DNA of 38,667 bases from an uncultured Spirochaetales bacterium. Its GTDB lineage: Bacteria; Spirochaetota; Spirochaetia; Sphaerochaetales; Sphaerochaetaceae. The notes under the pieces were generated by a model that was not told the DNA's origin, did no database searches, and saw only the letters and a list, made by a program, of their open reading frames with translations. The position numbers were made by a program, and so were the translations under genes. This document shows positions 7,822-24,673 of the stretch, piece after piece (positions within the stretch are counted from its first letter, which is position 1; each line of letters starts with the position of its first letter). The stretch is taken from assembly GCA_949282255.1 (NCBI GenBank), contig CASDPA010000019.1, forward strand, positions 1-38,667, read 5' to 3'.

Positions 7822-7871
7822 AACGGAAACATAGTAGTATTTAAGCCCTGCTTGGTCAACAAAGGAGCAAG

Positions 7872-8804
7872 TCAAAACAGATCTAAAGTAAGTTCGTCGG
7901 CACCCGTGCCTCGCGTTGCGCGGACTTTGGGGGACAAAAGCTTTTTAAAATCCTTCTTCCCATCGAACTGCAAAGCTCCAGAAACGATATGTTCAAGCAC
8001 GAACGAATACCCGGACCTGTTAATCATATGAGATGAAACAAGGCGCAGGCTGGAAGACGGATCCACGGAATCAAATATCCTCCACGCAGGCCCTCCATCC
8101 TTTTCCTCGACTAAAAAAACCTTGTCAGAGAGGACTCCGATTGCACGATTGCGTATCACCTGGTGCCACTTTTCCATTTTTGCCGCCGGTCCGAACGGAC
8201 TTATTATCAGTCCGCCGCGTTTCATTATGTCAACCATCTGGGCCTTAAGCTGTTCGTTCGGGGCCTTTGTCGGGAACTGGGAAGAGAAGGCTATCACATT
8301 GCCGCTCTTTTTAAGCATTTCAGCCATCGCCAGGCTGGAGATGCCGACCATCAGCGGGCAGAAGAGCACCAGCTTCTTCTCAAAAGCAAAATCCGCCGCC
8401 TCCGCAGCAAGTTCCACACCGGTTCCGCTCGGGGCCAATGTGCCTAATACAGTAAGTCGAGGCTTCGAAAGCAGAGAGAGGTTTCCTACGGCATAAAGGA
8501 ATGGGACCGGAAACTCAGAGGCTGTGAGGGAGGATGAAAAGAAAACGCTTTTTTCATCGATTATCTCATATGGAGCTCTGATTTTGTCGTACGCGGCCCT
8601 GACACCTCTCCAATGGAAATTTATATCCTCCTCTTTCATGCCCAAAATAGATGATGCCTTATTAGAGAATGCAGGCAATGGGGAATCCAAGTCGAAATTA
8701 GCGCCGAGAGTGCGGAAAAAGCCATATGCCTTCTTATAATCGTAGCCGAAAAGCTCTAAAAGCGTTTCATGTGTCAGGGATGCCTCAATACTTTTCAACC
8801 ACAT
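7872..8804 (-). CDS. Divergent DprA/Smf-like DNA-processing protein
   Basis: DprA proteins bind single-stranded DNA and load RecA during natural transformation. The Rossmann-like DprA core is recognisable from FLYAVGNLSLLSKPRLTVLG, through a SGTGVELAAEAADFA helix, a strand-turn GNVIAF in place of the usual G..TIAVLG, GGLIISPFGP in place of G.LLSE.P, and VIRNRAIGVLSDKVFLVE in place of F..RNRIIAGLS. The canonical VGTR is LGTL, so the nucleotide or ssDNA surface has changed. The 310-residue protein has N- and C-terminal extensions I cannot name. It overlaps the upstream dehydrogenase gene by 20 bases, implying coupled translation. ATG 8804 has AGGAGG only one base away. A TTG two codons later (8798) has the ideal 7-base spacing and may be the real start. 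Confidence 0.7.
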   Translation of the reverse strand: MWLKSIEASLTHETLLELFGYDYKKAYGFFRTLGANFDLDSPLPAFSNKASSILGMKEEDINFHWRGVRAAYDKIRAPYEIIDEKSVFFSSSLTASEFPVPFLYAVGNLSLLSKPRLTVLGTLAPSGTGVELAAEAADFAFEKKLVLFCPLMVGISSLAMAEMLKKSGNVIAFSSQFPTKAPNEQLKAQMVDIMKRGGLIISPFGPAAKMEKWHQVIRNRAIGVLSDKVFLVEEKDGGPAWRIFDSVDPSSSLRLVSSHMINRSGYSFVLEHIVSGALQFDGKKDFKKLLSPKVRATRGTGADELTLDLF

Positions 8805-10059: not shown

Positions 10060-11211
10060 CTAGAAACAATCCACGATATGAACTTTCATCGGGGTTTCAG
10101 GCAGTTTTATTGCATTTTCTTCTCCGACAGCAACAGGATATTCCAACCGCAGTCCTCCCACTCCAGGAACATATAAATGAGCACCCATGGCGAACGTCAT
10201 TCCCATCCTGAATACATTCTTATTATCAAGATTAAGGGTAGGACCCGTACGAGCACATACTCCTATTCCATGTCCAAATCGCGGAAGACTATATTCGGAA
10301 AGGCCGTATTTCTCATAGACGTTCATACCTTTCTTTACAACATCGCATATCCTTACACCGGGATGTATGGCGCAGAACACGGTATCCACTACTTCTTCCC
10401 AACAGTCTATCAGCTTACGCTGTTCCATATTGGGTTTACCTAAAAACACAGGAATGCTGAAATCGCAAAGATAGAGATTCCAGCTTGGATGAAAATCTGC
10501 TATAACGAACTCATTTAGTTGCAATCGCCTATCGGTAGATATCTGTGTAACACCTTTATAAAAAGCTGTTCGAGGTCCTGATCCGACTTCCGTACCTGCC
10601 GTAACCGACCAAGCCCAATAGCTTCCTTTGTCTCTTATCGCTTTTTCGATGATGCCGGCGACCTGATTTTCGGTCAATCCCGGTCTAATCTCAGATAACA
10701 TGACATTAAATCCATGATCGGCAATATGGCAGACATGCCTCATCCGCTCAAGTTCTTCTTCACCTTTTATTATCAATAGATCATCGAGATACTGTACTCC
10801 ATTCTCGAACTCATATTCCGAATACTTCATTAATTCAAGATATTCGGATGCGGTCAGTATGCCGGGCGCCGGTTGAGCATTACCTTTAATCGATAAATCC
10901 AGTGCAATTCTCCCTTTTCCGATCCCATACTCCTTTAGCCTCGAAAAAACCTTTTCGAACAGATCATCAAAAAAGTACTCAACAATATCCATTGTCGCAC
11001 CTTCGGATCTCACTCGATTTACATCATTTGCCCAGTAAAACAAACAGAAATCATTTTTGTCTGTTATAAGAGCAACTCCACGCCATGGCATAAAGACTCC
11101 ACACAGATAATGCAAACCTGCCTGTCTTGTAACAAGATACGCTCTTATGCCAGCATTTCTAAGATTTTTAGAAAGAAGCTCTCTACGCGTTTGATAATCA
11201 ATCTCTTTCAC
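10060..11211 (-). CDS. M24 family (creatinase/prolidase-like) hydrolase with one metal-ligand Glu replaced
   Basis: A two-domain 'pita-bread' protein of 383 residues: an N-terminal creatinase-type domain (about 1-140) and a C-terminal M24 domain. The Asp pair is D239 and D250 with normal 11-residue spacing (IADF...LCDF), and the His is H314 in FGHGIG. At residue 343, where Xaa-Pro peptidases have the first metal-binding Glu (FTxEPG), this protein has Gly (FAMGAH). The last Glu (RLE, E357) is kept. Loss of a ligand suggests a mononuclear or metal-free enzyme, as in creatinase, so C-N hydrolysis of a small molecule is as likely as peptidase action. It is the last gene of the operon. GTG 11211 overlaps the kinase stop by four bases (GTGA), with GGGGAGG four bases upstream of the start. 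Confidence 0.8.
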   Translation of the reverse strand: MKEIDYQTRRELLSKNLRNAGIRAYLVTRQAGLHYLCGVFMPWRGVALITDKNDFCLFYWANDVNRVRSEGATMDIVEYFFDDLFEKVFSRLKEYGIGKGRIALDLSIKGNAQPAPGILTASEYLELMKYSEYEFENGVQYLDDLLIIKGEEELERMRHVCHIADHGFNVMLSEIRPGLTENQVAGIIEKAIRDKGSYWAWSVTAGTEVGSGPRTAFYKGVTQISTDRRLQLNEFVIADFHPSWNLYLCDFSIPVFLGKPNMEQRKLIDCWEEVVDTVFCAIHPGVRICDVVKKGMNVYEKYGLSEYSLPRFGHGIGVCARTGPTLNLDNKNVFRMGMTFAMGAHLYVPGVGGLRLEYPVAVGEENAIKLPETPMKVHIVDCF

Positions 11212-12719
11212 AGAACCTCCCCATCATGATCCATGACAACCATGAAAATGAGATCTTGAATGCTAATATTATGAATGGACCAAATTCCATTTCCCGTCTT
11301 CCACAAGGCTCTTGAAGTATCATGAAACTTTAAAGCTTTAAGAAAATCTTCCCCGACGGCAACCCCCTCGTCGAAAGAATAGCCATCAACGATTCCTCCC
11401 GCCAAGCAATCACACCCGAGAGCCGAGGCCTCGGAATCAAAATCACCTCCGGGGCCATCCGTTCCATCCGTATCGACAGATACGCTCACAATCCTCTTAT
11501 TTCCTCTAAGGATTTTTGCTGCTCCTAATGCAAATTCCTGATTTCTTCCACCTATACCCTTATAGCCATTCACTGCAACTACCATCTCTCCTGTCAAAAG
11601 AAACAAGCAAGGTGGTTTGAAAGGTTCATGTTCACTATCGGTATTTATTGCGATTCTGCTTATAAGTTCTCCAGTGGTCAAAGCATCAACAAAAGTCCTA
11701 CGCATCAGAAAATGGGGCTCATATCCAATCTTTCTTGAATAATTCATGATTGCGTTGATGAAGTTATACTTCTGCGGCATAAGACCAAATATCCTATTAT
11801 CATATTTATCAAATTCCGCCGGAGTTAAAACACCGTTCTCTTTAGGCGCATTCTCAAGATAATGACGAATCGACTCACTTACAGATTCCCATACCCCATG
11901 ATTTTTAAGAACATCAATTGCCATCTCCGGTGTGCTTATGTCCGGAAGCGAATGCAACCAGAAATTATTGTGGATATATCCATGATAACCACCCTTATTA
12001 AAAGCATTCGGTTCCCCAATATCGATCGGAAAAAGATGGATTAGCTTCGCTTTTGATAAAAGCCTTGTGATTCTTCCTCCCTTTAGTTGGTCAAGTTGAT
12101 TCCTGACTATGTTAAGGTATGGTGTAGTAACTCCTCTTTCTATCTGAAGCTTCTGGGTAATATCCGCAACATCTTCTATATCCAATCCCGGCCAAGGATA
12201 AGTCATCATGGAAGATGCACCATTCCCTATTATAATAAAGACAATATCCCTTGGTGTTAGATCGGATTCGGTTATATGTTTTTTCAGAATCCGGCTTGAT
12301 TCCACACAGCAAGACTCGGGAACAGGATGAGAAGCATAACATACATCGATTCTTTTAAGAGAATGTGCATCTTGATGTTTGATCAAAATCAATCCTCCCG
12401 TAAGATAATCACCTAATATATCCTCTAAAGCCTGGGCTATACGCTGAATCCCTTTTCCTGCACCAAATACAAAAATCCTATCTATATCGGTATCTAGATT
12501 ATATTCATCAATACCTTTTCTAGGCGAATCATTAAAAGTGAAATCATCATTTCCGATAAGAAGTTTGGCACCGTCTCTCCGTACAACCTGTCCGGTATTA
12601 ACATAAGGATCCGCAGCCCGTAATCCTTCTTCTAGGATATCAAGAGCAATTCTCCTTCCTTCTTTATTACCATGAGATACAAGTCTGTCAGTATTAATAA
12701 TTCTCAAGGGTGTCCTCAC
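11208..12719 (-). CDS. Glycerate 2-kinase (DUF4147/MOFRL family)
   Basis: The family phosphorylates D-glycerate (or hydroxypyruvate-related acids) to 2-phosphoglycerate using ATP. Family blocks visible in order: VFGAGKGIQRIAQALE near 85, SHPVPES, the nucleotide loop IIIGNGASSMM near 160 (usually SGGGSAL), NQLDQLKGGRI near 210 (usually KHLS.IKGGRLA), then the MOFRL domain with GGRNQEFALGAA and VDTDGTDGPGGDF near residue 420. The 503 residues are somewhat longer than typical. Several loops deviate, so the acceptor may not be glycerate itself. It starts four bases after the second enolase-like gene. GTG 12719 lacks a clear ribosome site; TTG 12707 sits six bases behind GAGG and is an alternative start. 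Confidence 0.85.
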   Translation of the reverse strand: MRTPLRIINTDRLVSHGNKEGRRIALDILEEGLRAADPYVNTGQVVRRDGAKLLIGNDDFTFNDSPRKGIDEYNLDTDIDRIFVFGAGKGIQRIAQALEDILGDYLTGGLILIKHQDAHSLKRIDVCYASHPVPESCCVESSRILKKHITESDLTPRDIVFIIIGNGASSMMTYPWPGLDIEDVADITQKLQIERGVTTPYLNIVRNQLDQLKGGRITRLLSKAKLIHLFPIDIGEPNAFNKGGYHGYIHNNFWLHSLPDISTPEMAIDVLKNHGVWESVSESIRHYLENAPKENGVLTPAEFDKYDNRIFGLMPQKYNFINAIMNYSRKIGYEPHFLMRRTFVDALTTGELISRIAINTDSEHEPFKPPCLFLLTGEMVVAVNGYKGIGGRNQEFALGAAKILRGNKRIVSVSVDTDGTDGPGGDFDSEASALGCDCLAGGIVDGYSFDEGVAVGEDFLKALKFHDTSRALWKTGNGIWSIHNISIQDLIFMVVMDHDGEVL

Positions 12720-12723
12720 TTTT

Positions 12724-14004
12724 TCATTCTGCTGTGCTGTATTTGAATTTATGGCCTTTTATTCCATATCTTCCCGAAAATCTAGCGCGGTGCCCGAGTT
12801 CTGATTCTATCTGAAGTAATCGATTCCCTGAATAGCACATACCATATTCATGAGCACTACCAGCATTTAATCCAACTGCATAATCACACGCATTGATTCC
12901 TTCTCCGCGTTCGCCACACAATACGATGCCAAAACCTTTTTCAACAGCATATAGTGATAATGCCATCATTTCTGACGTGGTTCCTATCTGACCTGCCGCA
13001 ATACGAACCGCATTGCCTGCTCCTTTTCCAATTGCCATTTCAAGACGCTTTATATCTCCTGCAACAAGATCATCGCATGTAATCTGTATATCCGTTCGTT
13101 TTGTAATTTCGGCAAAGCCATCAAAATCATCTTCTTCCAACGGATCCTCCACGATAACAAACGGGTATTCATTAATCATGGAAACTATCATCTCAATCTG
13201 CTCTCTCCTACTCCGCTCACCAGGAGCGAACAATCCTGAATAGACCTGCCTTTCCCGATTGTAAAAACAAGTTGCTGCAAAATCCGCTTGTATACCAACC
13301 TTTCCCAAATATCCTGATCGACTTATGGCAGATGTCATAAGATCCCATAGCACGCTATCCTCTGCAACCTTTCCTTTTGGAATAGCCATACCTGCTATAG
13401 GTTGCATCTTTATAGACAGCTTCTCTATCATAATATCATACCAGTTCATATAGACTTTCCAAAGAGCCTCGGAAGCTTCTGAATATGTCTTAAAACCATA
13501 TGCTACGAAACAATACGTTGGCTTATACCCGCAAGCGACAGTGTTTCCATATCTATTTGAACCACTTGCTGCAAGTGCGGCCGGAACAGGAAGTGTAATC
13601 GCCCTTACTCCTCCTAAATGTTTATATACAGGCAAACCCAAAGATGCCGCGCCTGCAAAAAGAATCGCTTCTGATATAGCCGCCACAGCATTTTTACCTA
13701 GATTGTCTTTACCACATGATAAAATGGCCTCATCACAAACAAGTTGTCTTGAAGCATCCATTCCTATAAGAATAGGCGCAACATGTTTCCTTATCTCTTC
13801 CACTGCAACGGAAACACCCATACCGATATCATCGATGCCACAAGGCAAAGCGTTTCCTTCATGATTACCCACAGATAGACCTTTGGAAATAATAGTATTA
13901 CCATATGCTCCATTCTGAGTCTCAACGACAACCTGGATAGCCGGTTGCATTCTATCGGAAAAAACCTTATATGCGCTTACTGATGTGATTGCTGATGATT
14001 TCAT
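12724..14004 (-). CDS. Enolase paralogue 2, catalytic lysine lost (probable partner subunit)
   Basis: Full-length enolase fold (426 residues; enolase is about 430): N-terminal capping domain with GLSVGNHEG in place of GASTGxHE, then the barrel. The three Mg-binding carboxylates are kept: D241 (QADFAATCFY), E286 (IVEDPLEEDDFDGF) and D311 (CDDLVAGD). The rest of the enolase site is gone. The general base Lys of KVNQIG is A336 (RIAAGQIG), the Glu of EFMI is Thr in PTYCF, GDEGG is GMAIPKG, SHRSGETED is CGERGEG, and the IKTG lysine is replaced in GSAHEYG. It closely parallels the neighbouring paralogue, and the two are translationally coupled (ATGA overlap). I infer a structural or regulatory partner, or an enzyme with different chemistry. 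It is not the housekeeping enolase. Confidence 0.85.
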   Translation of the reverse strand: MKSSAITSVSAYKVFSDRMQPAIQVVVETQNGAYGNTIISKGLSVGNHEGNALPCGIDDIGMGVSVAVEEIRKHVAPILIGMDASRQLVCDEAILSCGKDNLGKNAVAAISEAILFAGAASLGLPVYKHLGGVRAITLPVPAALAASGSNRYGNTVACGYKPTYCFVAYGFKTYSEASEALWKVYMNWYDIMIEKLSIKMQPIAGMAIPKGKVAEDSVLWDLMTSAISRSGYLGKVGIQADFAATCFYNRERQVYSGLFAPGERSRREQIEMIVSMINEYPFVIVEDPLEEDDFDGFAEITKRTDIQITCDDLVAGDIKRLEMAIGKGAGNAVRIAAGQIGTTSEMMALSLYAVEKGFGIVLCGERGEGINACDYAVGLNAGSAHEYGMCYSGNRLLQIESELGHRARFSGRYGIKGHKFKYSTAE

Positions 14005-15317
14005 ATTTCTGAATCCTTCTGAAATTTTCTTCCTTTTAAGCCTTCTGTACCTGCGTATCTTGCCAAAGAGCCTAATTCCCTTTCAATCTCTAGAAACCTA
14101 GTACCAGGGGTTCCTAAAGAGGATTCCCTTATACTACCAGCATTTATACCAACACTATAATCACATATCTCAACTCCTTCACCACGGCTAGAACAAGGCA
14201 TGACCGCATATCCATTCTCATATGCAAATTGAATCATCTCTAATGATTCGCTTATTGATCCGATTTGATTCACTTTGAGAAGGACGGTATTTCCAGAACC
14301 TAAACGTATTCCATGAGCAACCCTTTCTATATTCGTAGTGAAAAGATCATCTCCGACAATCTGAATTCCGGATTTTTCAGTAATAATAGCAAAACCTTCA
14401 AAATCCTCCTCATTTAACGGATCTTCGATTATTACGAAAGGATATTCCTTAATAAGATTGAGAATACAATCGATCTGCTGATCCCTGGTACGTATCTCAG
14501 AATTGAAAAGACCTTGATAGATGCCTTTTTCCCCATCATAGTAACAATCTGCGGCAAGATCGGCTTGAAGACCTATCCTTCCATCGTATCCGGTTTTACA
14601 TATAAGCTCAGTAAGCATGTCTAGTAAAACAAAATCATTATCGACTATGCCACGAGGAATGCTGAAAAACCCACAACAGGTATAAAATGGCGATGGCTCC
14701 TGGGATCTAAGTCCATAGAGGGAATTCATCTTTTCCTCCCATTTTGTGAATACTTCGAAAAGTGCATGCGACGCCTCTGTAAAACTATCGAAACCATGCC
14801 CAATAAGCGAATAAGTAGGCTTACTTCCACTTTTCTTTCCATCGCAATACCGAATTCCACCGCTGATACATCCATAAGAAGCACAAGGGAGAGTATAAGC
14901 CCTTTCGCCTCCGATATGCCTATAAAGTGGAATACCAAGAGAAGCCGCTCCGGCTTTGAGCACTGCTGCCGATACAGCAGCTACAGCATTACCACCCAAA
15001 CGCTCCTTTGCACCTTCCCCTCCAATATTCAAGATAGTATGGTCGACTTCAAACTGGCTGGCCGCATCCATTCCTATTATCGCAGGTGCTATAGTCTCCG
15101 TTATGTTTTGAACAGCATAATGAACACCCCTACCTCTCCATTTAGAACCTCCATCAAACCGAAAAGGTACTTCGTGTGTTCCAATAGATAGTCCTGAAAC
15201 TACCTGAGCTGTTCCAGAAGCTCCGTTTTCTGTGACAACAGTTGCCTCTATGGCAGGTTCTCCTCTCCCGGAAAACACCTGCCTGGCATATACATTTTTG
15301 ATCAATGTCCCATTCAT
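14001..15317 (-). CDS. Enolase paralogue 1, catalytic lysine and Mg ligands kept, other active-site residues changed
   Basis: 438 residues with the complete enolase fold. Kept: SGLSIGTHE loop, GGNAVAAVSAAV (for GANAILGVS), Mg ligands D253 (QADLAADCYY), E298 (IIEDPLNEEDFEGF) and D323 (GDDLFTTN), and the proton-abstracting lysine K348 in LLKVNQIGSISES. Changed: the Glu of EFMI is Thr (KPTYSLI), the GDEGG Glu region reads GFFSIPRG, SHRSGETED is SSRGEGVE, and IKTG is IRES. The phosphate-binding Arg-Ser and the His are therefore not in place, and 2-phosphoglycerate is unlikely to be the substrate as such. The retained base and metal site predict an enolisation or beta-elimination on a carboxylate. 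Overlaps the permease stop and the next paralogue's start by four bases each. AAGGAGA is 10 bases from the start. Confidence 0.86.
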   Translation of the reverse strand: MNGTLIKNVYARQVFSGRGEPAIEATVVTENGASGTAQVVSGLSIGTHEVPFRFDGGSKWRGRGVHYAVQNITETIAPAIIGMDAASQFEVDHTILNIGGEGAKERLGGNAVAAVSAAVLKAGAASLGIPLYRHIGGERAYTLPCASYGCISGGIRYCDGKKSGSKPTYSLIGHGFDSFTEASHALFEVFTKWEEKMNSLYGLRSQEPSPFYTCCGFFSIPRGIVDNDFVLLDMLTELICKTGYDGRIGLQADLAADCYYDGEKGIYQGLFNSEIRTRDQQIDCILNLIKEYPFVIIEDPLNEEDFEGFAIITEKSGIQIVGDDLFTTNIERVAHGIRLGSGNTVLLKVNQIGSISESLEMIQFAYENGYAVMPCSSRGEGVEICDYSVGINAGSIRESSLGTPGTRFLEIERELGSLARYAGTEGLKGRKFQKDSEI

Positions 15318-17308
15318 GACGCTGATGTCTCCTTTAATACTTTCTCTGCCTTTCTCCTTCTTATTTCATGTATGATCTGCGGTACAATCAAAATTAGAAG
15401 AATGGCTATACCGATAAGATCGGTTACCGCACCTGGATCGATGAGACATATTGCCCCGATTCCAACCAGGATCCTTTCAATAACCCTCTGGCTTCTATAG
15501 AAAAATCCTTCGGCGGCCACACCAAGAAAAATGATTCCAAGGCAAGAAGTAAAAATAGCCTGGATAAGAACGACAACAGAACTATACTCAAAAAGAAGAA
15601 TAGGATTATAGACAAAAAGGAATGGAACCATATAACTTGCAATTCCCAAAGCAAAGGCCTTATATCCTGTCTTGATCGGACTAGCTCCGGATAATCCTGC
15701 CGCAGTATATGCTGCAAGAGCTACAGGAGGAGTTATTGCTGATACATTTGCGAAATAGAAGGAAAAGAGATGGGCGGCAAGTACCGATACTCCAAAACTT
15801 CTAATAGTGGGTACTAAAAGAGTAGCAACAATGATATATGCAGGTGTTGTAGGCAGGCCCATTCCAAGTATAAGAGATGCAATTGCTGTTAGAACGAGAG
15901 CCAACAGAAGACTATTTCCGGCAACAGAAGATATGAGAGAACTGAATCTAGTGCCCAATCCTGTATAATTAACAATACCGACGACAATACCGGCACAGGC
16001 ACAAGCCAAAGCCACTGTAACACATCCCTTCGCGCCATCGACAAGGCAGTTGAGAATACGTCTTAATCCAAGCCGTGTTTCTTTTTTGAACAGAGATACT
16101 ATAAAAATAGCAAGAAGAGCCCTGAGAACAGCATACGTTGCCGAATACCCTAGAATAAGGAATATGACAAGTATCACCAAAGGAATAAACAAATAAATAT
16201 CTTTTATAAGATGCTTGAAGGTAAGTGTCGGATCCGTGTTCTTATCCGGAAGTAAGCCTAGTCTCTTAGCTTCAAAATGAACCATGACAAATACGGCAAG
16301 ATAATAAAGAACACCAGGGATTGCCGCTGCAAGTATTATACGACCATATGGGATTCCCGTATACTCTGCCATGACGAAAGCTGCTGCGCCCATGACAGGA
16401 GGCATAATCTGCCCACCAGTAGATGCAACAGCTTCTACAGCACCCGCAAATTCCGCTGAATAGCCGCTTTTCTTCATAAGAGGTATGGTGATCTGTCCTG
16501 TAGTCGCTACATTAGCTATCGTACTACCGGATATACTTCCGAAAAGACAAGAAGAGATAACGGCAGCCTTGGCAGGACCACCTACAGAGTTTTTGGTAAG
16601 AGTCCTCGCCACCTTGATAAAATATTCACCAACTCCTGAATATTCCAAAAATGAACCGAATATAACAAAAAGGACAACATATGTAGCTGAAGCTCCAAGA
16701 GCAACCCCGAATGGTCCTTCTGTAGTCATGTAAAGAGTATCTACAAATGCTATTGTAGAGAATCCTCCATTGCCAAGAAAGCCTGGAAGATATCGTCCCA
16801 AGAGCATATATACCATAGATACAATAGCAATGATCGGAAGCGCTATTCCCATCTTGCGTCTAGTTCCCTCAAGAATGGCAAGAATCATCATTGCACAGAA
16901 AAGGTATTCATACCAAGCAAGGTCTTCTATATAGTAAAACCTATTGATAATAATTTCCTCGTTTAACACCAGATAAAGAATCGGTATCACCGCGCATAGC
17001 GAAAGAAAGATATCCCACATCTTCAAAGGAATTCTGGACCTTTTCCCAGATATCTTTGAGGGACAAATAAAAAAAACAAGAAAACCTGCAAATGCAAAAT
17101 GTATTGACCTTTGATACAAAGCAAGCAACGATCCCGTCAATGCCGTATATAGATGGAACAAAGCAAAAGCCAAGGCAACTATCCATATTATCCAGCCATT
17201 AACCGTAGTTGGAAAGGCATTACCTGATCTGATAGAAGCTTCTTCAGATACTGTTTTCTCTTTGGGCATCTGATCCTTTGTCTCAATAATTTTCTCGTCC
17301 TGACTCAT
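15314..17308 (-). CDS. TRAP transporter fused permease (4TM-12TM, TAXI-associated)
   Basis: A 664-residue inner-membrane protein with about 16 hydrophobic segments after a hydrophilic N-terminal tail of some 35 residues. The DctM-like part shows the signatures SSCLFGSISGSTIANVATTG, MKKSGYSAEFAGAVEAVAST and MGLPTTPAYIIVATLLVPT, followed by FSFYFANVSAITPPVALAAY. This fused architecture goes with TAXI-type binding proteins and uses a sodium gradient to import dicarboxylates, keto acids or amino acids. The receptor gene lies 68 bases upstream. AGGAG stands seven bases before ATG 17308. Position between catabolic genes marks it as the importer of the operon's substrate; the substrate cannot be read from sequence. 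Confidence 0.93.
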   Translation of the reverse strand: MSQDEKIIETKDQMPKEKTVSEEASIRSGNAFPTTVNGWIIWIVALAFALFHLYTALTGSLLALYQRSIHFAFAGFLVFFICPSKISGKRSRIPLKMWDIFLSLCAVIPILYLVLNEEIIINRFYYIEDLAWYEYLFCAMMILAILEGTRRKMGIALPIIAIVSMVYMLLGRYLPGFLGNGGFSTIAFVDTLYMTTEGPFGVALGASATYVVLFVIFGSFLEYSGVGEYFIKVARTLTKNSVGGPAKAAVISSCLFGSISGSTIANVATTGQITIPLMKKSGYSAEFAGAVEAVASTGGQIMPPVMGAAAFVMAEYTGIPYGRIILAAAIPGVLYYLAVFVMVHFEAKRLGLLPDKNTDPTLTFKHLIKDIYLFIPLVILVIFLILGYSATYAVLRALLAIFIVSLFKKETRLGLRRILNCLVDGAKGCVTVALACACAGIVVGIVNYTGLGTRFSSLISSVAGNSLLLALVLTAIASLILGMGLPTTPAYIIVATLLVPTIRSFGVSVLAAHLFSFYFANVSAITPPVALAAYTAAGLSGASPIKTGYKAFALGIASYMVPFLFVYNPILLFEYSSVVVLIQAIFTSCLGIIFLGVAAEGFFYRSQRVIERILVGIGAICLIDPGAVTDLIGIAILLILIVPQIIHEIRRRKAEKVLKETSAS

Positions 17309-17376: not shown

Positions 17377-18363
17377 CTACTCCATTGCACCTATTTCCCT
17401 ATAATAACGAGCTGCACCTTCATGCATTGGAATACCAAGATCCTTAGCCATCTCCTCTGGTGTGAGGTTTGCATAAACGATATGACCTTGACCGATAGCA
17501 GGAAGTTCTTCAACAATCGCCTTTGTCATTTCATATACAAATTGCTCATCAAGATTCTTATTAACAATCATGTGCTGAGCATTACCCATGGTATAACAAT
17601 CCTCATCTACCCCAATGTAGGTTCCGGCAGGGATTATTTGTCTCATGTATGCAGGAGAAATCTTCTGCATTTCCGCAAGTTTATCATCAGGAATGCTGAT
17701 TAATCGGATATCCCTATTGGAAGCGATATCAAGAACGACGGAAACTGGAAGCGCAGATGCAAAACAGAGGCAGTCGGTAAGACCGTCTTTGAACTGTTCA
17801 CCCATATCATTCAGATTAGAGAATGTTATACTTCCGAGATCATCATATGTCATATCGTATACGCTCAAAAGATCACGGAAAATAACCTCCGCGGTATTTC
17901 CCTTTGCGAACGTGGTACAGTTTTTACCCTTCAAATCTGCTATACTGTAGATATCAGAATCCGCATTAACTATGATATGCGTATGCTCGTCGTAAAGAAA
18001 TCCCATATTCACAACATTGTCTGTTGGGGCTGTAAATGGTGGTTTTGCATTGTATCCATCGAAAGTCGTAGGAAGTTTTGACACAGCAAGTGTTATCTTT
18101 CCATCATTAACACCCTGTACATTACTCAGAGCTGCGCCAGGAGACACTGTCGTTCTAATTCCAGGTATATGGTCTGGAAGGAACTCGCCTACAACTGTAG
18201 TGAAAATATTCCAAGAGCCTCCTGTTGTACCGCCATAAATTATGACATCGGTAGGTCTCTCAATTGTGGTAGATCCAGCACTTGCTTCAGTTTGTCCGCC
18301 TGCGAACAAAAGTCCAACGGTCATGGCTGCGACAAGAGCCATCATTGTCAACGTCTTCTTCAT
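17377..18363 (-). CDS. TAXI family TRAP transporter solute-binding receptor
   Basis: A periplasmic binding protein of 328 residues. A Sec signal peptide spans about residues 1-22 (MKKTLTMMALVAAMTVGLLF, then AGGQTEASA); there is no lipobox cysteine. The mature protein begins with the TAXI hallmark IIYGGTTGGSWNIFTTVVGE, followed by TTVSPGAALSNVQGVNDGK, and has the paired VKG/AIP-like segments and a C-terminal QGHIVYANLTPEEMAKDLGIPMHEGA. It delivers substrate to the fused permease encoded next. It is preceded by a strong AGGAGG six bases from the ATG, consistent with the high synthesis binding proteins need. A stable hairpin follows the stop codon. Confidence 0.93.
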   Translation of the reverse strand: MKKTLTMMALVAAMTVGLLFAGGQTEASAGSTTIERPTDVIIYGGTTGGSWNIFTTVVGEFLPDHIPGIRTTVSPGAALSNVQGVNDGKITLAVSKLPTTFDGYNAKPPFTAPTDNVVNMGFLYDEHTHIIVNADSDIYSIADLKGKNCTTFAKGNTAEVIFRDLLSVYDMTYDDLGSITFSNLNDMGEQFKDGLTDCLCFASALPVSVVLDIASNRDIRLISIPDDKLAEMQKISPAYMRQIIPAGTYIGVDEDCYTMGNAQHMIVNKNLDEQFVYEMTKAIVEELPAIGQGHIVYANLTPEEMAKDLGIPMHEGAARYYREIGAME

Positions 18364-18386: not shown

Positions 18387-19241
18387 CTAAATAATGTAAT
18401 TCTCCAGAGTTCCAATACCATCAATTGTTATCGTTACTTTTTGGCCTTGCTTCAGGAACTTTGGAGGATTGAATTGCAATGCTGTACCAGCAGGCGTTCC
18501 GGTTGCAATGATATCTCCCGGTTCCAACGACATAAATTCCGAAAAATACTCGATGATTTGAGGAACTCCGAATATAAGATTTGATGAATAAGAATCCTGT
18601 CTGACCTCATCATCAACCTTTGTCATAATATGAAAACTATAGTCATCTGCGAATTCATCTTTCGTAACGAGGACAGGACCACTGGAAAAGAATCCATCAA
18701 AGTTCTTTCCCCTAAAAAGCTGAACATCATTCTTTACCACGTCATTCGCTGTGAAATCATTAACGATTGTATAGCCGGCAATGTAATCCATTGCTTCAGA
18801 TGCCATCACATTTCTGCAAGATCGACCGATAACGACACCAAGCTCCCCTTCATATGTAACCGAGTGCCCTTGAATATCAACACCATCACCTGTACCGCTT
18901 ATAGTATTTTTTTCCTTTCCAAAGACCTTTAACTCTTTCGGTAAATCAATTCCACCTTTTTCACAGAAATCCTTATAATTTAAGGCGACTCCAAGAACTT
19001 TATCAGGATCCGGTATAGGCATGATAAGCCTTGCTTCCTCAGAAATCATGCTTGGGTTCTGATAATCATAAACCAATCTAAGAATATCCATATAATCCGG
19101 ATATCTGATAATCGTCTTTATCGAATGAAATTTTTCTTTGATACCGATTTTCGCAGCAGTTTTTCCAATATCGATTACCTTTCCATCTTTAAAGAGCCCA
19201 ATCATATGCTCATCATTCAAAACAAAAGATGCCAGTCGCAT
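18387..19241 (-). CDS. Fumarylacetoacetate hydrolase (FAH) family protein
   Basis: 284 residues: a short N-terminal domain and the FAH catalytic domain from about residue 75. VLGVALNYKDFCEK opens the domain. The metal-binding acidic pair is in YEGELGVVIGR (near 130), the third acid is in VNDFTANDV, and the closing GDIIATGTPAGTA loop is present. Family members hydrate or cleave C-C bonds in 2-keto or acylpyruvate substrates, for example 2,4-diketo-3-deoxy sugar acids in non-phosphorylated fucose and rhamnose pathways. That fits the MR-type dehydratases and the dehydrogenase encoded upstream. Starts 11 bases after the UxaA-type large subunit with AAAGGAGG well placed. The exact reaction is not deducible. 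Confidence 0.9.
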   Translation of the reverse strand: MRLASFVLNDEHMIGLFKDGKVIDIGKTAAKIGIKEKFHSIKTIIRYPDYMDILRLVYDYQNPSMISEEARLIMPIPDPDKVLGVALNYKDFCEKGGIDLPKELKVFGKEKNTISGTGDGVDIQGHSVTYEGELGVVIGRSCRNVMASEAMDYIAGYTIVNDFTANDVVKNDVQLFRGKNFDGFFSSGPVLVTKDEFADDYSFHIMTKVDDEVRQDSYSSNLIFGVPQIIEYFSEFMSLEPGDIIATGTPAGTALQFNPPKFLKQGQKVTITIDGIGTLENYII

Positions 19242-19252
19242 GACAACCTCCT

Positions 19253-20461
19253 TTAAAAAACAGGACCAAGAAAATAAGGCTCTATTTGATCTTGATATTT
19301 TATTGTTTCACCTTTCGCGTATTCACCATCTGCAACACTTATGATCTTCTCTAAAAGTGATTCTCCAGCTTCATCAAGTGTCATCTTCCCTCTAAGTACT
19401 TCCCCCGCAGAGAAATCTATACTTCTTGAAGCTTTTTCTGCAGTTATGTAGTTGCCGGTAACATACATCAAAGGCGCAACTATTCCTGTATTGGTACCAA
19501 GCATCGGAGGATCATTATCCGGCAGGTCTCCACCACCAAGCTGATATAACGTAATCACGCATCCTGCAGCCGCCAAACTTGCAGGAAGAGAAAATGCAGA
19601 GGCCCAACCATCCATAAAATGTAAGCCGGGCTTAGTAGGCTGTTGACAATACTCAAGTACACCGACAATAGGTTTGGAACCAGCTTTTCTGATTGCACCA
19701 AGAGATTTTTCTTCAAGAGTGGTTATACCTGCCGCTATATTCGCTGGAATCGGATTGATTGTACGAATATCTTCTCCTGTCGCCTTCGCCGCAGTTTCCA
19801 CCGCATTGACCATCTCCAGCAGACGCTTTGCATCATCCGGATTCACACAGCGTTCCGCAACATAGTTCTCCGCACCGATAAGCTCGGTAGTTTCAGAGAA
19901 AATCACTGTTCCTCCCGCATCAATAAGTTTATCAGCCGCAGCACCAAATGAAGGATTTCCACTTATTCCGCTCGTTGCATCAGACCAACCACACTTGACC
20001 CCTATTTTCAACTTGCCAAGAGGTACTTCCTGCCTATGTTCAAGAGAAGCCTTCCTAACCATTTCCCTTGCTGTCGCAATTCCGTTCTCAACAAGCCTAT
20101 CTTGCCCTCCAGCTTCGTTCATATAAAGAACAACACAAGGCTTACCACTTTCATCTATCCTAGTCTTCAAAGCCTCCGCCCGTACTTCCGGATAGCCATT
20201 GTCAGGTTTGAGGGCAAGGATGATTGTGCCATAGACATTTGCATTCTTCGCCAATCCCACATAAATATCGGAAAGACGCTTCCTGTCTTTGCTATGTCGG
20301 CACACTTCTCCAGTAGTAATAACGGTTTTCACACCTACTACGTAATCTGCAATTCTTTTGGCGATAATATTACATACCCTGCATGCAGGAACAATCAATA
20401 CATGATTTCTTACGCCGACGTCGCCGTTTGGTCTGATATAACCCCAAAAAACTTTTTTCAT
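19253..20461 (-). CDS. UxaA-family hydro-lyase, large (catalytic) subunit; altronate dehydratase/SuyB-like
   Basis: 402 residues matching the C-terminal catalytic part of altronate/galactarate dehydratases and SuyB of sulfolactate sulfo-lyase. Blocks: WGYIRPNGDVGVRNHVLIVP at the start, LAKNANVYGTIILAL near 75, KIGVKCGWSDATSGISGNPS near 155, GGTVIFSETTELIGAE, and GLHFMDGWA near 285. The usual tH.yGC motif is altered to TTGEVCRHSKDR, keeping a Cys and a His. Family members are metal-dependent and eliminate water (or sulfite) from a 2-hydroxy acid. The ATG follows directly after the TGA of the small subunit, with GAGGAG seven bases upstream, so the two are co-translated. Confidence 0.88.
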   Translation of the reverse strand: MKKVFWGYIRPNGDVGVRNHVLIVPACRVCNIIAKRIADYVVGVKTVITTGEVCRHSKDRKRLSDIYVGLAKNANVYGTIILALKPDNGYPEVRAEALKTRIDESGKPCVVLYMNEAGGQDRLVENGIATAREMVRKASLEHRQEVPLGKLKIGVKCGWSDATSGISGNPSFGAAADKLIDAGGTVIFSETTELIGAENYVAERCVNPDDAKRLLEMVNAVETAAKATGEDIRTINPIPANIAAGITTLEEKSLGAIRKAGSKPIVGVLEYCQQPTKPGLHFMDGWASAFSLPASLAAAGCVITLYQLGGGDLPDNDPPMLGTNTGIVAPLMYVTGNYITAEKASRSIDFSAGEVLRGKMTLDEAGESLLEKIISVADGEYAKGETIKYQDQIEPYFLGPVF

Positions 20462-20728
20462 TCAAATATCTCCTCTGCCTCTTAATCCTGCCATATTGTG
20501 TTCCCGGATAAGTTCACCTTTCTTAATGTCTGTAAGTGCATAACCAATAGGACAACCATATTTAATGATTTTCTCGCCTGCATTTATATCCACCAGGGCA
20601 CATTTATGTCCAAATGGTATATCTGATATAAGCTCAATAACATCCTTTCCGCATTTGATAGTCTGTCCTTTCTTCCCGTCCGCAATCATTACCGCAACAT
20701 TATCCTTTGAATCAAGGCGCATAAGCAT
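20462..20728 (-). CDS. UxaA-family hydro-lyase, small SAF-domain subunit; SuyA-like
   Basis: 88 residues. This SAF domain is fused to the catalytic part in UxaA/GarD proteins but separate here, as in SuyAB. Visible features are the beta-rich core from DNVAVMIADGKKGQ, GEKIIKYGCPIGYA, and the diagnostic C-terminal HNMAGLRGRGD, close to the family's HN...RGRGD. A longer frame exists from TTG 20755, but AGGAGG lies eight bases before ATG 20728, and the resulting length matches stand-alone small subunits better. The longer frame would overlap the dehydrogenase stop by four bases. The partner large subunit begins immediately after the TGA. Confidence 0.88.
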   Translation of the reverse strand: MLMRLDSKDNVAVMIADGKKGQTIKCGKDVIELISDIPFGHKCALVDINAGEKIIKYGCPIGYALTDIKKGELIREHNMAGLRGRGDI

Positions 20729-20751
20729 ATTCGTATCCTCCTCAGCCATTC

Positions 20752-21738
20752 TCAATTACGATTTCTCCAATATGGGGAACTATATACATCGGCATCATAT
20801 ACTCCACTCCATTCTTGCCCATTAAGGATTGCAAGAACGCCCTCAACAGCCTTTACAGCACATCTGGCGGCACTCTCTTTTGTCAATGCAGCCATATGAG
20901 GTGTCGCGATAAAATTATCAAGCTGAAGCAATGGACTGTTCATATCAAATGGTTCTTTACACATCATATCCTCGGCGGCATACGATATAACTCCGGTTTT
21001 AAGGCAATCAAAGAGCGCCGATTCATCAACAAGATCCCCTCTTGCGCAATTTATGAAAATCGAGCCCTTCCGCATTTGATGGAATAACCGTTCCGAAAAC
21101 ATTCCTCTTGTCTCATCAGTTGAAGCGACATGTACGGTTACGACATCACACATAGGAAGCAATTCTTCGAGCGAATGGAAGTATGAAAATCCTTTATCGA
21201 CAATAGAGTTCTCACTAACAAAAGGATCATAAATAAATACTTTCATTCCCAATGCTTTTGCAATATCCCCGACGATTCTTCCAACATGTCCAAATCCAAT
21301 TATCCCCAACGTCTTACCATATAACTCAAAAGCTTTATATGCATTTCTGATAGAGTAATTTCCCGAAAGCGCCTCTTTTCTGCTTTCAAAAAGGTTCTTA
21401 GAAATAGATAGAAGCAGAGCAAATACATGCTCGGCGACCGAACGGCTATTTTCTCCAGGAGTTATAACAACAGGAATACCGGACTTAGTCGCATAACCTA
21501 CATCTATGGTATCAACGCCCACCCCAGGACGAGCAATGACTTTCAGTTTCGAGCATTTCCTCATCATATTTGCATCGATACCACCTATTCTGAGAATAAA
21601 TGCATCTGCAGTAATCAGATATGGAAGTATTTTTTCTTTGTTGTTTTCATTAGCAACAATTACTTCCGTGTCAGGATGAGAGCATAATAACTGCATACCC
21701 TCGTCACAAAGGGCATGAGATAAAACAATTTTAAACAT
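20752..21738 (-). CDS. D-isomer-specific 2-hydroxyacid dehydrogenase (NAD-dependent)
   Basis: 328 residues. The substrate domain flanks a Rossmann domain with GIIGFGHVGRIVG near residue 150 and an acidic residue in YDPF that favours NAD. The catalytic triad is Arg in NCARGDLVDE, Glu in AAEDMMCKEP and His in TPHMAALTKES. It interconverts a D-2-hydroxy acid and a 2-keto acid. Relatives include phosphoglycerate, glyoxylate/hydroxypyruvate and (S)-sulfolactate dehydrogenases, so the substrate is open. In this operon it would oxidise or reduce an intermediate made by the dehydratases. AGGAG is five bases before ATG 21738; the previous gene ends 12 bases upstream. Confidence 0.92.
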   Translation of the reverse strand: MFKIVLSHALCDEGMQLLCSHPDTEVIVANENNKEKILPYLITADAFILRIGGIDANMMRKCSKLKVIARPGVGVDTIDVGYATKSGIPVVITPGENSRSVAEHVFALLLSISKNLFESRKEALSGNYSIRNAYKAFELYGKTLGIIGFGHVGRIVGDIAKALGMKVFIYDPFVSENSIVDKGFSYFHSLEELLPMCDVVTVHVASTDETRGMFSERLFHQMRKGSIFINCARGDLVDESALFDCLKTGVISYAAEDMMCKEPFDMNSPLLQLDNFIATPHMAALTKESAARCAVKAVEGVLAILNGQEWSGVYDADVYSSPYWRNRN

Positions 21739-21750
21739 TTGGGCTCCTGT

Positions 21751-22890
21751 CTATTTAATTAAATATTTCTTGATTACATCATGATTAACCGTTATTCCTA
21801 TACCAGGTTTGTCTGGAATTGAAACTACCCCGTTCTCCCTTCTTAAAGGTTCTTTTACCAAAAGTTCCCTAAATGGACTTTCCGTCTGTTCATATTCCAT
21901 CCATACAGGAGCAGCTTTCCAACTATGAGGAGCAGGAGGAAGTGCGGCCATAACTTGTAGAGCGGCAAACAATCCTATGGCGGAACCCCATACATGCATC
22001 ATAAGCATTGTCCCAGAAATCTCGGCAAGCGCAGAAATTTTCATTACTTCCGTGATGCCTCCGCAACAACATAGATCAGGCTGTATGATATCCATTGCTC
22101 TTTTTTCCATTATCTCATTAAATGCATACCGGGTAAAATTGTTCTCCCCTCCTGCAAGCGGAATGGATGTTTTCATTCTTAAATCCCTATAGCCATTGAG
22201 ATCATGAGGAGAAATCGGTTCCTCGAACCAGCTTATGCCAAGCTTTTCAAACTCTTTTGCAAGCCATACAGCATCATAAAAGCTATAACCATGATTTGCG
22301 TCAACCATCAGTTCAATGTCATCACCTATCGCCTCTCTGACAGCCCTCACCCTCTTTATTTCGTCCTTACGATTAAGAGCTATCTTCATTTTTATTCCTT
22401 TGAATCCTAGATCTTTGTACCTTACAGCTTCCTCAACAGCCGGAGAAGTAAAGTCGCCTTCCTCCTCTTTAAAATAAAGGCCTGTGGCATATGGTGTCAC
22501 ATATCGACGATGAGCACCTCCCAACAGCTTATATATCGGAAGACCCGCATCTTTTCCCTTAATATCCCATAAAGCAATATCTATAGCGCTTATAGCTGCA
22601 ACACCAAAACCCTGTGGGGCATAATCCTCTATCCTCTGGTACATTTTCTCCCAAAGAACATCTGTATCAAATGGATCTTGTCCTATAAGCAGGGGGGCCA
22701 GGAGGCTATCCACCACCATCTTCGTACATTCAGCAGGACCATAGGCTTCCCCCCATCCATCAATCCCCGCATCTGTCTCCACCTGAACAAGCATTGCGTT
22801 TTTTGTCTTATACCACCATCCTCTGGCAGAGGTAAAAGGCTTTTCTATTTTTGTGCGTAAAATCATTGCTTTTACAGAAGTGATCTTCAT
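21751..22890 (-). CDS. Mandelate racemase/muconate lactonizing-type sugar-acid dehydratase 2
   Basis: 379 residues, enolase superfamily, MR subgroup: alpha+beta cap (about 1-120) then a modified TIM barrel. The base motif KxK reads GIKMKIA near 175, and Mg ligands are in MVDANHGY, WFEEPISP and GGENNF. The MR-type His is in MMHVWGS near 300. The cap includes WGEAYGP and GLYFKEEEGDF on the substrate side. Such enzymes abstract the alpha proton of an aldonic or aldaric acid and eliminate water to give a 2-keto-3-deoxy acid. It is clearly different in sequence from dehydratase 1, so the pair likely act on two stereoisomers or two steps. GGAGAG precedes the start; the gap to the previous gene is 12 bases. 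Confidence 0.92.
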   Translation of the reverse strand: MKITSVKAMILRTKIEKPFTSARGWWYKTKNAMLVQVETDAGIDGWGEAYGPAECTKMVVDSLLAPLLIGQDPFDTDVLWEKMYQRIEDYAPQGFGVAAISAIDIALWDIKGKDAGLPIYKLLGGAHRRYVTPYATGLYFKEEEGDFTSPAVEEAVRYKDLGFKGIKMKIALNRKDEIKRVRAVREAIGDDIELMVDANHGYSFYDAVWLAKEFEKLGISWFEEPISPHDLNGYRDLRMKTSIPLAGGENNFTRYAFNEIMEKRAMDIIQPDLCCCGGITEVMKISALAEISGTMLMMHVWGSAIGLFAALQVMAALPPAPHSWKAAPVWMEYEQTESPFRELLVKEPLRRENGVVSIPDKPGIGITVNHDVIKKYLIK

Positions 22891-22902: not shown

Positions 22903-24000
22903 TCAATCTATTTTATATTTTTCTATGAATTCCTCTTTGAGCTCATTACCCATTCCAGGAACAGAAGGCATCTGCACTTCGCCATTTTTAAGAACCAATG
23001 GATGCATCAGCATTTCGTTATCATGCTTGATTCCTTCACATTCCAAATATATCGTATTTTCAATCGAACACATCACATTCACATTTCCCGGTCCACCAAG
23101 ATGGCTGGCAAGCTTAAGACCTGCAACATCGGATATAGCTGCGATCTCCAGCCATTCCGTCACTCCTCCAGCCCTTCTGTTATCCGGTTGCACTATATCC
23201 AAACATCCTCCACGAATTGCATCGTAAAACTGATGTTTCATAAAAAAATTCTCACCGCCAGCAATAGGTATCCTAAGCTTTTCCCGCAACCGTTTATATG
23301 ATTCCATAAGATATGGAGGCAAGGGCTCCTCATACCAGAAAATATCTGCATCTTGATATGCGTATCCACGTCGTAACGCCTCGAATTCATCAAATGCGCA
23401 ATTTGCATCTATCATTATCCTGTAGTCATCACCGAGAGCCTTACGCACCGCATTTATTCTGGACATATCATCTTTAAGATCTCCACGTCCCACTTTGATT
23501 TTAACCGCGGAAAATCCTTCTTCCGCCGCGTTCACACATGCATTTACAAGCCCTTTGAGGCCATCTTCATAATACCATCCGACCATAGCATATGCGGGGA
23601 CAGACGTCCTCCGGGCTCCCAAGACCATAGCAACCGGAGTGTTTGCCGACTTTCCAATCAGATCCCAGCAACATATGTCTACAGCAGATATAGCCATTGC
23701 GGCCACACCTGATGTCCCATAATAACTGAGACGGTCATGAACCATTTTTCTTATAAGGCGAACAAAATGAGGATCTTGACCGATGAGTACAGGCGTGATT
23801 TCGCTGTCTATGATTTTCTTGACAGTGGACATTCCTGATTCAATCAATCCAAAATATGTTATAGCATTTCCTATATATCCGTTATCGGAATGAATTTGTG
23901 TTAAAAGATATCCACCAACATCATAGTTTGTAAGAGAGCTTCCGAATGTACGCTCAACACGTCTCTTCAATATCGTCACAGTGACTTTCTCTATTCTCAT
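22903..24000 (-). CDS. Mandelate racemase-type enolase-superfamily enzyme 1 (dehydratase or epimerase)
   Basis: 365 residues with the MR-subgroup plan. KxK is AVKIKVG near 165, Mg ligands are in MIDANCAF, WYEEPLPP and GGENFF, then QPDNRRAGG, and the catalytic His is in LASHLGGPG. The MR-type His-Asp pair plus KxK lysine allows 1,1-proton transfer (epimerisation) or dehydration. Substrate-specific cap residues are unlike common galactonate or gluconate dehydratases, so I do not name a substrate. It starts one base after the regulator's stop codon, tying it to gntR expression. Confidence 0.92.
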   Translation of the reverse strand: MRIEKVTVTILKRRVERTFGSSLTNYDVGGYLLTQIHSDNGYIGNAITYFGLIESGMSTVKKIIDSEITPVLIGQDPHFVRLIRKMVHDRLSYYGTSGVAAMAISAVDICCWDLIGKSANTPVAMVLGARRTSVPAYAMVGWYYEDGLKGLVNACVNAAEEGFSAVKIKVGRGDLKDDMSRINAVRKALGDDYRIMIDANCAFDEFEALRRGYAYQDADIFWYEEPLPPYLMESYKRLREKLRIPIAGGENFFMKHQFYDAIRGGCLDIVQPDNRRAGGVTEWLEIAAISDVAGLKLASHLGGPGNVNVMCSIENTIYLECEGIKHDNEMLMHPLVLKNGEVQMPSVPGMGNELKEEFIEKYKID

Positions 24001-24001
24001 A

Positions 24002-24673
24002 TCACTCTCCCAGTCTGGAACCTAAGACTTCCTGCAGCCGCTGTATATATCGATTTTTTGTTATGATTGTGTGACAGGTAACCAACGCCTCAGCATATTC
24101 GGCGTTTCCGCCCTTCATGGCATCCAAGATCTTCCTATGCTCATCTATAGACTCCTGTATTTCCCAATCACAGGTGTAATAATTCGGATATCGCGCGGAA
24201 AAATCGAAAAGTTCGGAAAGGAGTTTTATCAGCACATCGTTTCCGCAGAATTCATACATCGCGAAATGAAAGCGCCTGTTGTATTTCCAATATCCCATAT
24301 AATCTTCGGAACCCAAAAACTTCTTTCCATCATTAAATAACTTCTCAAGCCTCCCCATACCACCAGGCTCAATACGCTTTGTAGCCTCAAAGATAGCCAA
24401 ACTTTCCAGTTTCAACCTAACCTCAAATATATTCTCGACTTCTTGTTTTGAAATCTGACTGACATAAAATCCATTGTTGGGCTTGGATATAAGAACACCT
24501 TCTTTAACCAACGCAAGGAACGCCTCCCTTACAGGAATCTCACTTGTTCCATATTTTTCAGCCACAATAGAAGTAAGAAGACGTTCTCCGGGCTTGTACT
24601 CACCATCTAGTACACACTGGCGGACCATGTCATGAATCATTCCGCTTTTTGTCTTATACTTTTGCTCAATCAT
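24002..24673 (-). CDS. GntR-family transcriptional regulator, FCD subfamily
   Basis: 223 residues. The N-terminal winged helix is recognisable from GEYKPGERLLTSIVAEKYG and IPVREAFLALVKEGVLISKP (about 20-65). The C-terminal FCD ligand domain covers about 75-215, with metal-site His residues in NRRFHFAMYEFCGND, IDEHRKILDAM and VTCHTII; the first acidic ligand of the usual D..FH is Asn here. It is the first gene of the 13-gene operon and probably controls it in response to a carboxylate intermediate. Its promoter carries an AATATATTCT repeat directly over the -10 box (see the promoter entry), pointing to autorepression. AGGAAG sits upstream of ATG 24673. Confidence 0.92.
   Translation of the reverse strand: MIEQKYKTKSGMIHDMVRQCVLDGEYKPGERLLTSIVAEKYGTSEIPVREAFLALVKEGVLISKPNNGFYVSQISKQEVENIFEVRLKLESLAIFEATKRIEPGGMGRLEKLFNDGKKFLGSEDYMGYWKYNRRFHFAMYEFCGNDVLIKLLSELFDFSARYPNYYTCDWEIQESIDEHRKILDAMKGGNAEYAEALVTCHTIITKNRYIQRLQEVLGSRLGE

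Follow-up and report, generated by a model that had tools for sequence, protein, structure and literature searches.

A tandem pair of enolase-like proteins, probably active plus inactive, encoded beside an altered MOFRL kinase in a spirochaete operon

The operon and its two enolase-like proteins

The window analysed here, a stretch of 38,667 nucleotides from an uncultured Spirochaetales bacterium (contig CASDPA010000019.1), contains a minus-strand operon in which two enolase-like genes, ENO1 and ENO2, lie in tandem. The order of the operon is GntR, two MR_MLE genes, D-2-hydroxyacid dehydrogenase, UxaA with a small ORF, FAH, TAXI-TRAP, ENO1, ENO2, MOFRL and M24 (Table 1), and it is identical in two congeners (L043 and L054). 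The host of ENO1 and ENO2 is a gut spirochaete.

Table 1. Genes and sequence features of the operon, listed from its head
Feature	Position	Strand	Remarks
GntR/FCD regulator	24002..24673	-	Operon head
MR/MLE-type sugar-acid dehydratase homologue 1	22903..24000	-	
MR/MLE-type sugar-acid dehydratase homologue 2	21751..22890	-	
D-2-hydroxyacid dehydrogenase (phosphoglycerate-dehydrogenase-like)	20752..21738	-	
97-aa ORF	20462..20755	-	Where the small UxaA subunit is expected; same-place homologue in L054
UxaA/galactarate-dehydratase-family large subunit	19253..20461	-	
FAA-hydrolase-family enzyme	18387..19241	-	Possible 2,4-diketo-3-deoxy acid hydrolase
TAXI-family TRAP solute receptor	17377..18363	-	Above cut-off
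TRAP transporter fused permease	15314..17308	-	NCBIfam TRAP_fused, 637 bits, above cut-off; ATGA overlap with ENO1
ENO1, enolase-like subunit read as catalytic	14001..15317	-	438 aa; Mg ligands D253/E298/D323, base K348
ENO1 new invariant residues			R156, Y157, K166, P167, Q251, S377, R378, R397
ATGA stop/start overlap ENO1-ENO2	14001..14004	-	4 bases
ENO2, enolase-like paralogue read as non-catalytic	12724..14004	-	426 aa; D241/E286/D311 kept, A336 at the base position
ENO2 further replacements			S377 equivalent, E365; R397 equivalent, H385
MOFRL/DUF4147 (glycerate-2-kinase-like) kinase	11208..12719	-	Altered RNQxD type; proposed maker of the ENO1 substrate
M24 metallopeptidase-family protein	10060..11211	-	Final gene of the conserved operon

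The first-pass annotation had described both reading frames as having full enolase length, and the ORF check, the domains and the predicted fold agree with it. Both proteins gave full Enolase_N and Enolase_C matches in Pfam, and the predicted single-chain structures are complete two-domain enolase folds (pLDDT 91.8 for ENO1 and 89.2 for ENO2). The PDB entries they resemble most are enolases, with superposition at about 2 Å over 407 residues for ENO1 (Z 48.1) and 400 residues for ENO2 (Z 48.4). With respect to the equivalog cut-off of 300 of NCBIfam TIGR01060 (eno), both proteins score below, with 278.0 bits for ENO1 and 194.5 bits for ENO2. The MR/MLE sugar-acid dehydratases, which are neighbours in the operon, share the chemistry of the enolase superfamily and the Mg ligands but represent another subgroup, since ENO1 and ENO2 match Enolase_N/C over the full length and MR/MLE weakly (partial MR_MLE_C only, 30 and 33 bits, and no MR_MLE_N). 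For a relation to CPEP synthase, a phosphinothricin-type biosynthetic context would be expected; the comparison covered the gene context of ENO1 and ENO2, which is catabolic.

Rebuilt active sites and the ENO1 family

Few known enzymes are as conserved as enolase, which normally functions as a homo-oligomer and whose active site hardly varies; in the yeast enzyme, the residues on the phosphate/carboxylate side can be distinguished by their roles from those on the leaving-hydroxyl side. Active-site positions are given in yeast numbering on the basis of a joint alignment with canonical enolases, which at E211 and H373 falls in variable loops. The alignment confirmed the three Mg carboxylates in both proteins and the base lysine in ENO1 only (Table 1), the equivalents of D246/E295/D320 and K345 being retained in ENO1. 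Out of the catalytic set H159/E168/E211/K345/H373/R374/S375/K396, ENO1 retains K345 alone and ENO2 none. In ENO1, H159 is replaced by Arg, E168 by Thr, H373 by Ser, R374-S375 by Ser-Arg and K396 by Arg, and E211 is gone; in ENO2, H159 is likewise Arg and H373 is Gly. Several replacements had already been read in the first pass: the EFMI Glu is indeed Thr in both proteins and the GDEGG Glu is absent from both, while others needed correction. The loss of the SHRSGE His-Arg-Ser stands for the His, but in ENO1 the Arg is shifted by one place and not simply lost. The IKTG Lys is replaced in both proteins, more precisely by an Arg that is invariant in the family of ENO1 and by His in ENO2, and among the replacement motifs said to be shared, IPxG is not strict, as the second copy of G001 has IPQH.

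With enolase (EC 4.2.1.11), both proteins have in common the fold, the domain order, the length, the Mg ligands and the KVNQIG motif, and ENO1 also the base lysine. They differ from it in the replacement of E168, E211, H159, H373, R374, S375 and K396, in scores under the eno cut-off, in the catabolic operon and in the presence of a second copy that has no base.

When species genomes were scanned with an ENO1 profile, relatives with 38-76% identity were found on about 25 contigs, in Spirochaetota, Clostridia, Chloroflexota, a deltaproteobacterium, Lentisphaerota, Myxococcota and archaea. Most of these genes occur singly, and a second sub-branch with SRGD/KITQ motifs was found in Chloroflexota and Bathyarchaeota. 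R156, Y157, K166, P167, Q251, P374, S377, R378 and R397 (ENO1 numbers) are among the residues invariant in 32 family members and are found in 0 of 9 canonical enolases; the positions equivalent to H373 and E211 are variable across the same 32. The sharing of these replacement residues goes beyond chance. K345 and the D/E/D Mg ligands are likewise invariant in the 32 members, and E168, E211, H373 and R374 are lost from the family. On sequence grounds, ENO1 is a member of a coherent, so far unnamed family. As read from the alignment, the phosphate/carboxylate side of its site is rebuilt with arginines, and on the leaving-hydroxyl side both acids are gone and a lysine is gained. Random decay of ENO1 was rejected in view of the invariance of the site in the 32 members. 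The earlier suggestion of a defined new site is well supported for ENO1: bacterial and archaeal members have the same site, and its changes go together with those of the adjacent kinase. For ENO2 it is half right: besides the three Mg ligands, this protein retains R151, K161 and R366, but the second copies of other lineages have lost Mg ligands. At the ENO2 base position there is Ala in the window and Val in two congeners, S377 is replaced by Glu, and R397 by His or Gly.

Origin of the second copy and absence of canonical enolase

The analysis yielded seven tandem pairs: three belong to the window's genus, one is in Treponema (L055), one in Spirochaetia (L075) and two in a single Oscillospiraceae genome (L152 and L065). 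In the tree, the seven second copies lie on one side of a branch and the first copies on the other (support 95/96), which is why we favour a single duplication followed by descent or transfer; the branches of L065 and L075 are very long, and therefore their exact positions are uncertain. The second copy was never found without the first at any locus examined. As judged from the tree, the second copy arose once, beside copy 1, in gut anaerobes. In a survey of the phylum, close ENO2 relatives were present in three genomes only, all of the window's genus, and a search for plasmid-borne close relatives gave none above the level of ordinary enolases.

The second copies differ in how much of the site is left. 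In the window's genus and in L152 K345 is lost (Asp in L152) and the Mg ligands are kept; in L055 (D/Q/R) and L075 (D/Q/S) Mg ligands are lost too; the L065 copy is shorter, at 381 aa, with nearly all catalytic residues gone. Between congeners, ENO2 has a pN of 0.23-0.27 and a saturated pS of 0.80-0.84, and ENO1 is tighter (pN 0.13-0.17). Considering that pN is low with respect to saturated pS, ENO2 is under purifying selection in the window's genus, and its random decay is unlikely.

The first-pass annotation had proposed an obligate heteromer of a catalytic and a non-catalytic subunit, on the basis of translational coupling. This argument is weak, and was rejected as proof, because the TRAP permease gene overlaps ENO1 by the same ATGA; overlapping genes are common in the operon. 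The heteromer itself, though not its obligate nature, gains inferential support from the single origin of the second copy, its constant association with the first and its constraint in the window's genus. ENO1 and ENO2 are probably an active-plus-inactive enzyme pair, and we infer a heteromer because a dead copy is kept beside the active copy of a normally dimeric enzyme. What speaks against a non-catalytic ENO2 is that the second copies of the window's genus have all the Mg ligands, so that a different, slower chemistry is possible.

Activation of enzymes by dead paralogues is known from the trypanosomatid AdoMetDC prozyme (PMC5201418) and from the dead subunit of deoxyhypusine synthase (PMC3663545). 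In these systems, too, an active enzyme and an inactive duplicate are kept together by selection, and by its sequence ENO2 appears to be of this type, without catalytic residues, selected, and beside the active gene. However, the prozyme-type pairs are eukaryotic, have unrelated folds and form complexes demonstrated by experiment, whereas the complex of ENO1 and ENO2 is our proposal. No paper on an inactive enolase partner was found among the open PMC papers searched, in agreement with the earlier remark, which knew of no description for enolase; ENO1 and ENO2 are probably a previously undescribed active-plus-inactive enolase pair.

Canonical enolase is missing in all three pair-bearing congeners (G000, 96.75% complete; G001, 97%; G014, 99%) and present in 29 of the 33 other congeners. 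The chance that all three pair carriers fall among the 7 of 36 without enolase is 35/7140 (about 0.005), a figure that takes no account of relatedness. With the enolase of a congener as query, no fragment was found in G000 or G014, and in G001 only a separate paralogue with 49% identity. The four other enolase-free congeners have near-identical phosphoglycerate mutases and represent one lineage; G000 groups with G003 and G034, which both have enolase. Phosphoglycerate mutase was found in 39 of 40 congeners, all pair carriers included, and the pair genomes G440 and G450 are also without canonical enolase.

The absence of canonical enolase from these pair genomes, and the presence of the mutase in G000, G001 and G014, would suit an ordinary enolase re-engineered to convert D-2-phosphoglycerate to phosphoenolpyruvate (PEP), alone or as heteromer, in place of the canonical gene. 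We consider this quite improbable, as E168, E211, H159, H373, R374 and S375 are all replaced, the kinase motif is altered in parallel and the genes sit in catabolic operons. Moreover, a search of the 24 other ENO1-family genomes found a canonical-grade enolase in 17 of them, so that ENO1 is usually an extra enzyme; G001 has its separate 49%-identical enolase, and the genomes are incomplete MAGs. The enolase gap may reflect a pair that fills it, rerouted metabolism, or MAG incompleteness.

The altered kinase and the candidate substrates

A MOFRL kinase was found at 29 of 39 ENO1-family loci as compared to 7 of 55 canonical-type enolase loci in the same scan, whose loci are of unequal length and in part truncated. 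The 10 ENO1-family loci with no MOFRL gene nearby, some of them on short or truncated contigs, count against the explanation that we prefer below. All seven MOFRL kinases adjoining canonical enolases, and two of known structure, have RKHx(S/C). In contrast, 24 of the 29 ENO1-linked kinases have R(N/T)xxD, and the remaining five are also without the Lys (0/29 have it). At the pair loci, 7 of 7 kinases show an additional His-to-Gln (or Ser) change. The window kinase has RNQxD in place of RKHx(S/C), together with the DUF4147 and MOFRL domains and the catalytic Lys/Arg motifs. The fold family, the GK(A/G) Lys and GG(R/P)NQE are those of MOFRL/DUF4147 glycerate 2-kinases (GckA; T. maritima, PDB 2b8n), some of which also adjoin canonical enolases; the ENO1-linked kinases retain the Lys of the GK motif and GGRNQE, but most differ in RKHxS to R(N/T)xxD, in GGGS to G(N/S)G and in an insertion after TDGPG. 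The split of the kinase motif tracks the ENO1 family, and this is our strongest evidence that the kinase and ENO1 probably handle one compound, which is not D-glycerate. It argues for kinase and lyase as one dedicated module.

At L071, a locus with neither pair nor MOFRL gene, the ENO1-type gene adjoins genes for a kinase-fold protein and for a protein of phosphoglycerate-mutase type (395 bits, cut-off 330.65), which points to a phosphorylated hydroxy acid as substrate. This neighbourhood, the tight linkage and co-variation with the kinase, and the several basic residues retained or gained make it hardly likely that ENO1 is an MR_MLE-like dehydratase or epimerase of an unphosphorylated hydroxy or sugar acid, with the kinase serving another step, even though the classical phosphate ligands R374 and S375 are changed and two MR_MLE genes share the operon. 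A carboxylate transporter of TRAP or TctA type is present at the pair loci of the window, L065 and L152 (an amino-acid permease in L055), and LarA-type/nickel-pincer 2-hydroxyacid isomerases at L152 (group 22, 515 bits, cut-off 400) and L055 (Lar_N). This suggests that an imported 2-hydroxy acid is isomerised, phosphorylated and cleaved.

Our preferred explanation, to which we give somewhat less than an even chance, is that ENO1 is a lyase eliminating a C3 group from a kinase-made 2-phospho-2-hydroxyacid, with ENO2 as its non-catalytic partner subunit; it commits us to a class of reaction and to no one substrate. The TRAP transporter would import a 2-hydroxy acid, or the sugar-acid enzymes encoded upstream would supply one, and the adjacent altered MOFRL kinase would phosphorylate it. 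Two Mg ions in ENO1 would hold the carboxylate of the product, K348 would remove the C2 proton, and the C3 group would depart, giving PEP or a close analogue. ENO2, a duplicate that would no longer catalyse, may be kept because it stabilises or regulates a heterodimer, or a higher oligomer, of which it is part. The leaving group, or the geometry, probably differs from that of D-2-phosphoglycerate, because the water-handling residues have been lost and the formerly acidic pocket at C3 is basic in ENO1 (Lys166, Arg156). We infer the phosphorylated substrate and the elimination, as we do the heteromer; the loss of the Lys and gain of an Asp in the kinase pocket is a poor obvious fit to a second anionic group in the substrate.

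The basic pocket could also arise from a swap of phosphate and CH2OH, if the kinase phosphorylated L-glycerate and ENO1 dehydrated L-2-phosphoglycerate, the mirror-image substrate. In agreement with this, the neighbours include possible sources of L-glyceraldehyde or L-glycerate (MR_MLE, DHDPS, FAH, KDPG aldolase, aldehyde dehydrogenase, AFOR), and the specificity motif of the kinase is altered, but we regard the reading as unlikely: no conserved general acid is left for hydroxide, and the hydroxyacid racemases at some loci, if acting on glycerate, would make a mirror-image kinase and enolase needless.

Sulfite, as a leaving group, needs no general acid, and for this reason 2-phospho-3-sulfolactate, made by the kinase and split by ENO1 into PEP and sulfite, fits the chemistry as a desulfonation route: no conserved acid has taken the place of those that served the OH leaving group, and the pocket at C3 has become basic. 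The reaction would be the reverse of that of ComA (phosphosulfolactate synthase) in coenzyme M synthesis, although ComA is not an enolase-subgroup protein. The content of a Clostridia operon resembles sulfo-EMP2 gene sets (PMC9594981): along with a PfkB kinase, class II aldolase, DUF4867 and aldehyde dehydrogenase, it encodes a FucI-like isomerase with SftI as sole NCBIfam match and an Ldh_2 protein with L-sulfolactate dehydrogenase as best NCBIfam match. In addition, glycerate would hardly call for a 2-hydroxyacid racemase together with a special kinase and a lyase. However, the SftI and sulfolactate-dehydrogenase matches are far under cut-off, SftI-like matches occur also in control genomes and hence are generic, and DUF4867 is mostly found outside sulfoglycolysis (PMC11968277). 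Most of the Clostridia genomes examined have no clear sulfoquinovosidase, YihQ homologues being absent or at generic GH31 level, and the window UxaA protein (32% identity to its UxaA-type counterpart in the Cupriavidus hps cluster and 37% to others of the UxaA type) is no closer to the SuyB-type protein. NIR_SIR and TauE are both missing from the pair genomes G001 and G014, so that sulfite genes do not track the pair, and the kinase pocket has lost a Lys. The sulfoquinovose/sulfolactate route, at first attractive in view of the Clostridia operon, was demoted on the generic SftI match, the UxaA protein, the absent or generic YihQ homologues and the sulfite genes, and we now find it very doubtful; among the open PMC papers searched, none linked phosphosulfolactate to an enolase in the sense of sulfite release.

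In its boldest form, the proposal is that an active/dead enolase-fold heterodimer and an altered kinase convert a non-glycerate 2-hydroxy acid to PEP with expulsion of a C3 group other than water, most strikingly sulfite from 2-phospho-3-sulfolactate. We hold this to be a low-probability outcome; the sulfite form, if true, would be an ATP-primed, oxygen-independent and radical-free desulfonation. As regards annotation, such genes would receive the names of enolase and glycerate kinase, and yet D-glycerate is probably not what the enzymes act on. Since none of the three pair-bearing congeners has a canonical enolase, the physiology is open to direct test. In gut anaerobes, the duplication offers a natural series in which a subunit loses catalysis stepwise and is nevertheless kept. 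The wide occurrence of an enolase branch whose site is rebuilt and whose kinase has co-evolved with it suggests a so far unrecognised metabolic step ending in or near PEP.

Canonical enolase in the pair-bearing genomes

No canonical enolase was found in the whole genomes of the three congeners carrying the ENO1-ENO2 pair (G000, G001 and G014), each of which has a phosphoglycerate mutase. Among the remaining congeners, 29 of 33 contain a canonical enolase.

Genes neighbouring the pair and its relatives

In a pair-free relative locus (L071), the ENO1-type gene adjoins a homologue of phosphoglycerate mutase. Compared with the iPGM model, the N- and C-terminal portions of this protein have changed places, possibly through circular permutation. 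The large proteins flanking the ENO1 operons of three Clostridia loci gave no Pfam match. In the window, the M24 protein is encoded by the fixed final gene of the operon (3/3 congeners) and is the only pointer to peptide metabolism. Elsewhere in the window, the domains of a short alanyl-tRNA synthetase-type protein (615 aa) are limited to synthetase and SAD.

Coordinates of the genes discussed
Locus	Position	Product
Window	10060-11211	M24 (Xaa-Pro peptidase/creatinase-like) protein
Window	6028-7875	Alanyl-tRNA synthetase-type protein
L071	11495-13030	Phosphoglycerate-mutase homologue
L064	2898-4910	Large flanking protein
L060	16862-18865	Large flanking protein
L056	16776-18212	Large flanking protein
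L046	7761-9050	Divergent enolase paralogue
L047	7980-9275	Divergent enolase paralogue
L045	7926-9143	Divergent enolase paralogue
L048	2335-3651	Divergent enolase paralogue

Other enolase-type genes

Additional divergent enolase paralogues were observed in the genus and class of the window (L045-L048), with sites altered further, for example E168 to Asp and H373 to Ala (yeast numbering); some of them lie in catabolic-looking operons of their own. Five genomes of Chloroflexota and Bathyarchaeota (G438, G444, G449, G451 and G453) contain 5-6 enolase-type genes each, the majority of which belong to the ENO1 family and which are often adjoined by sulfatases, MR_MLE or aldolases.
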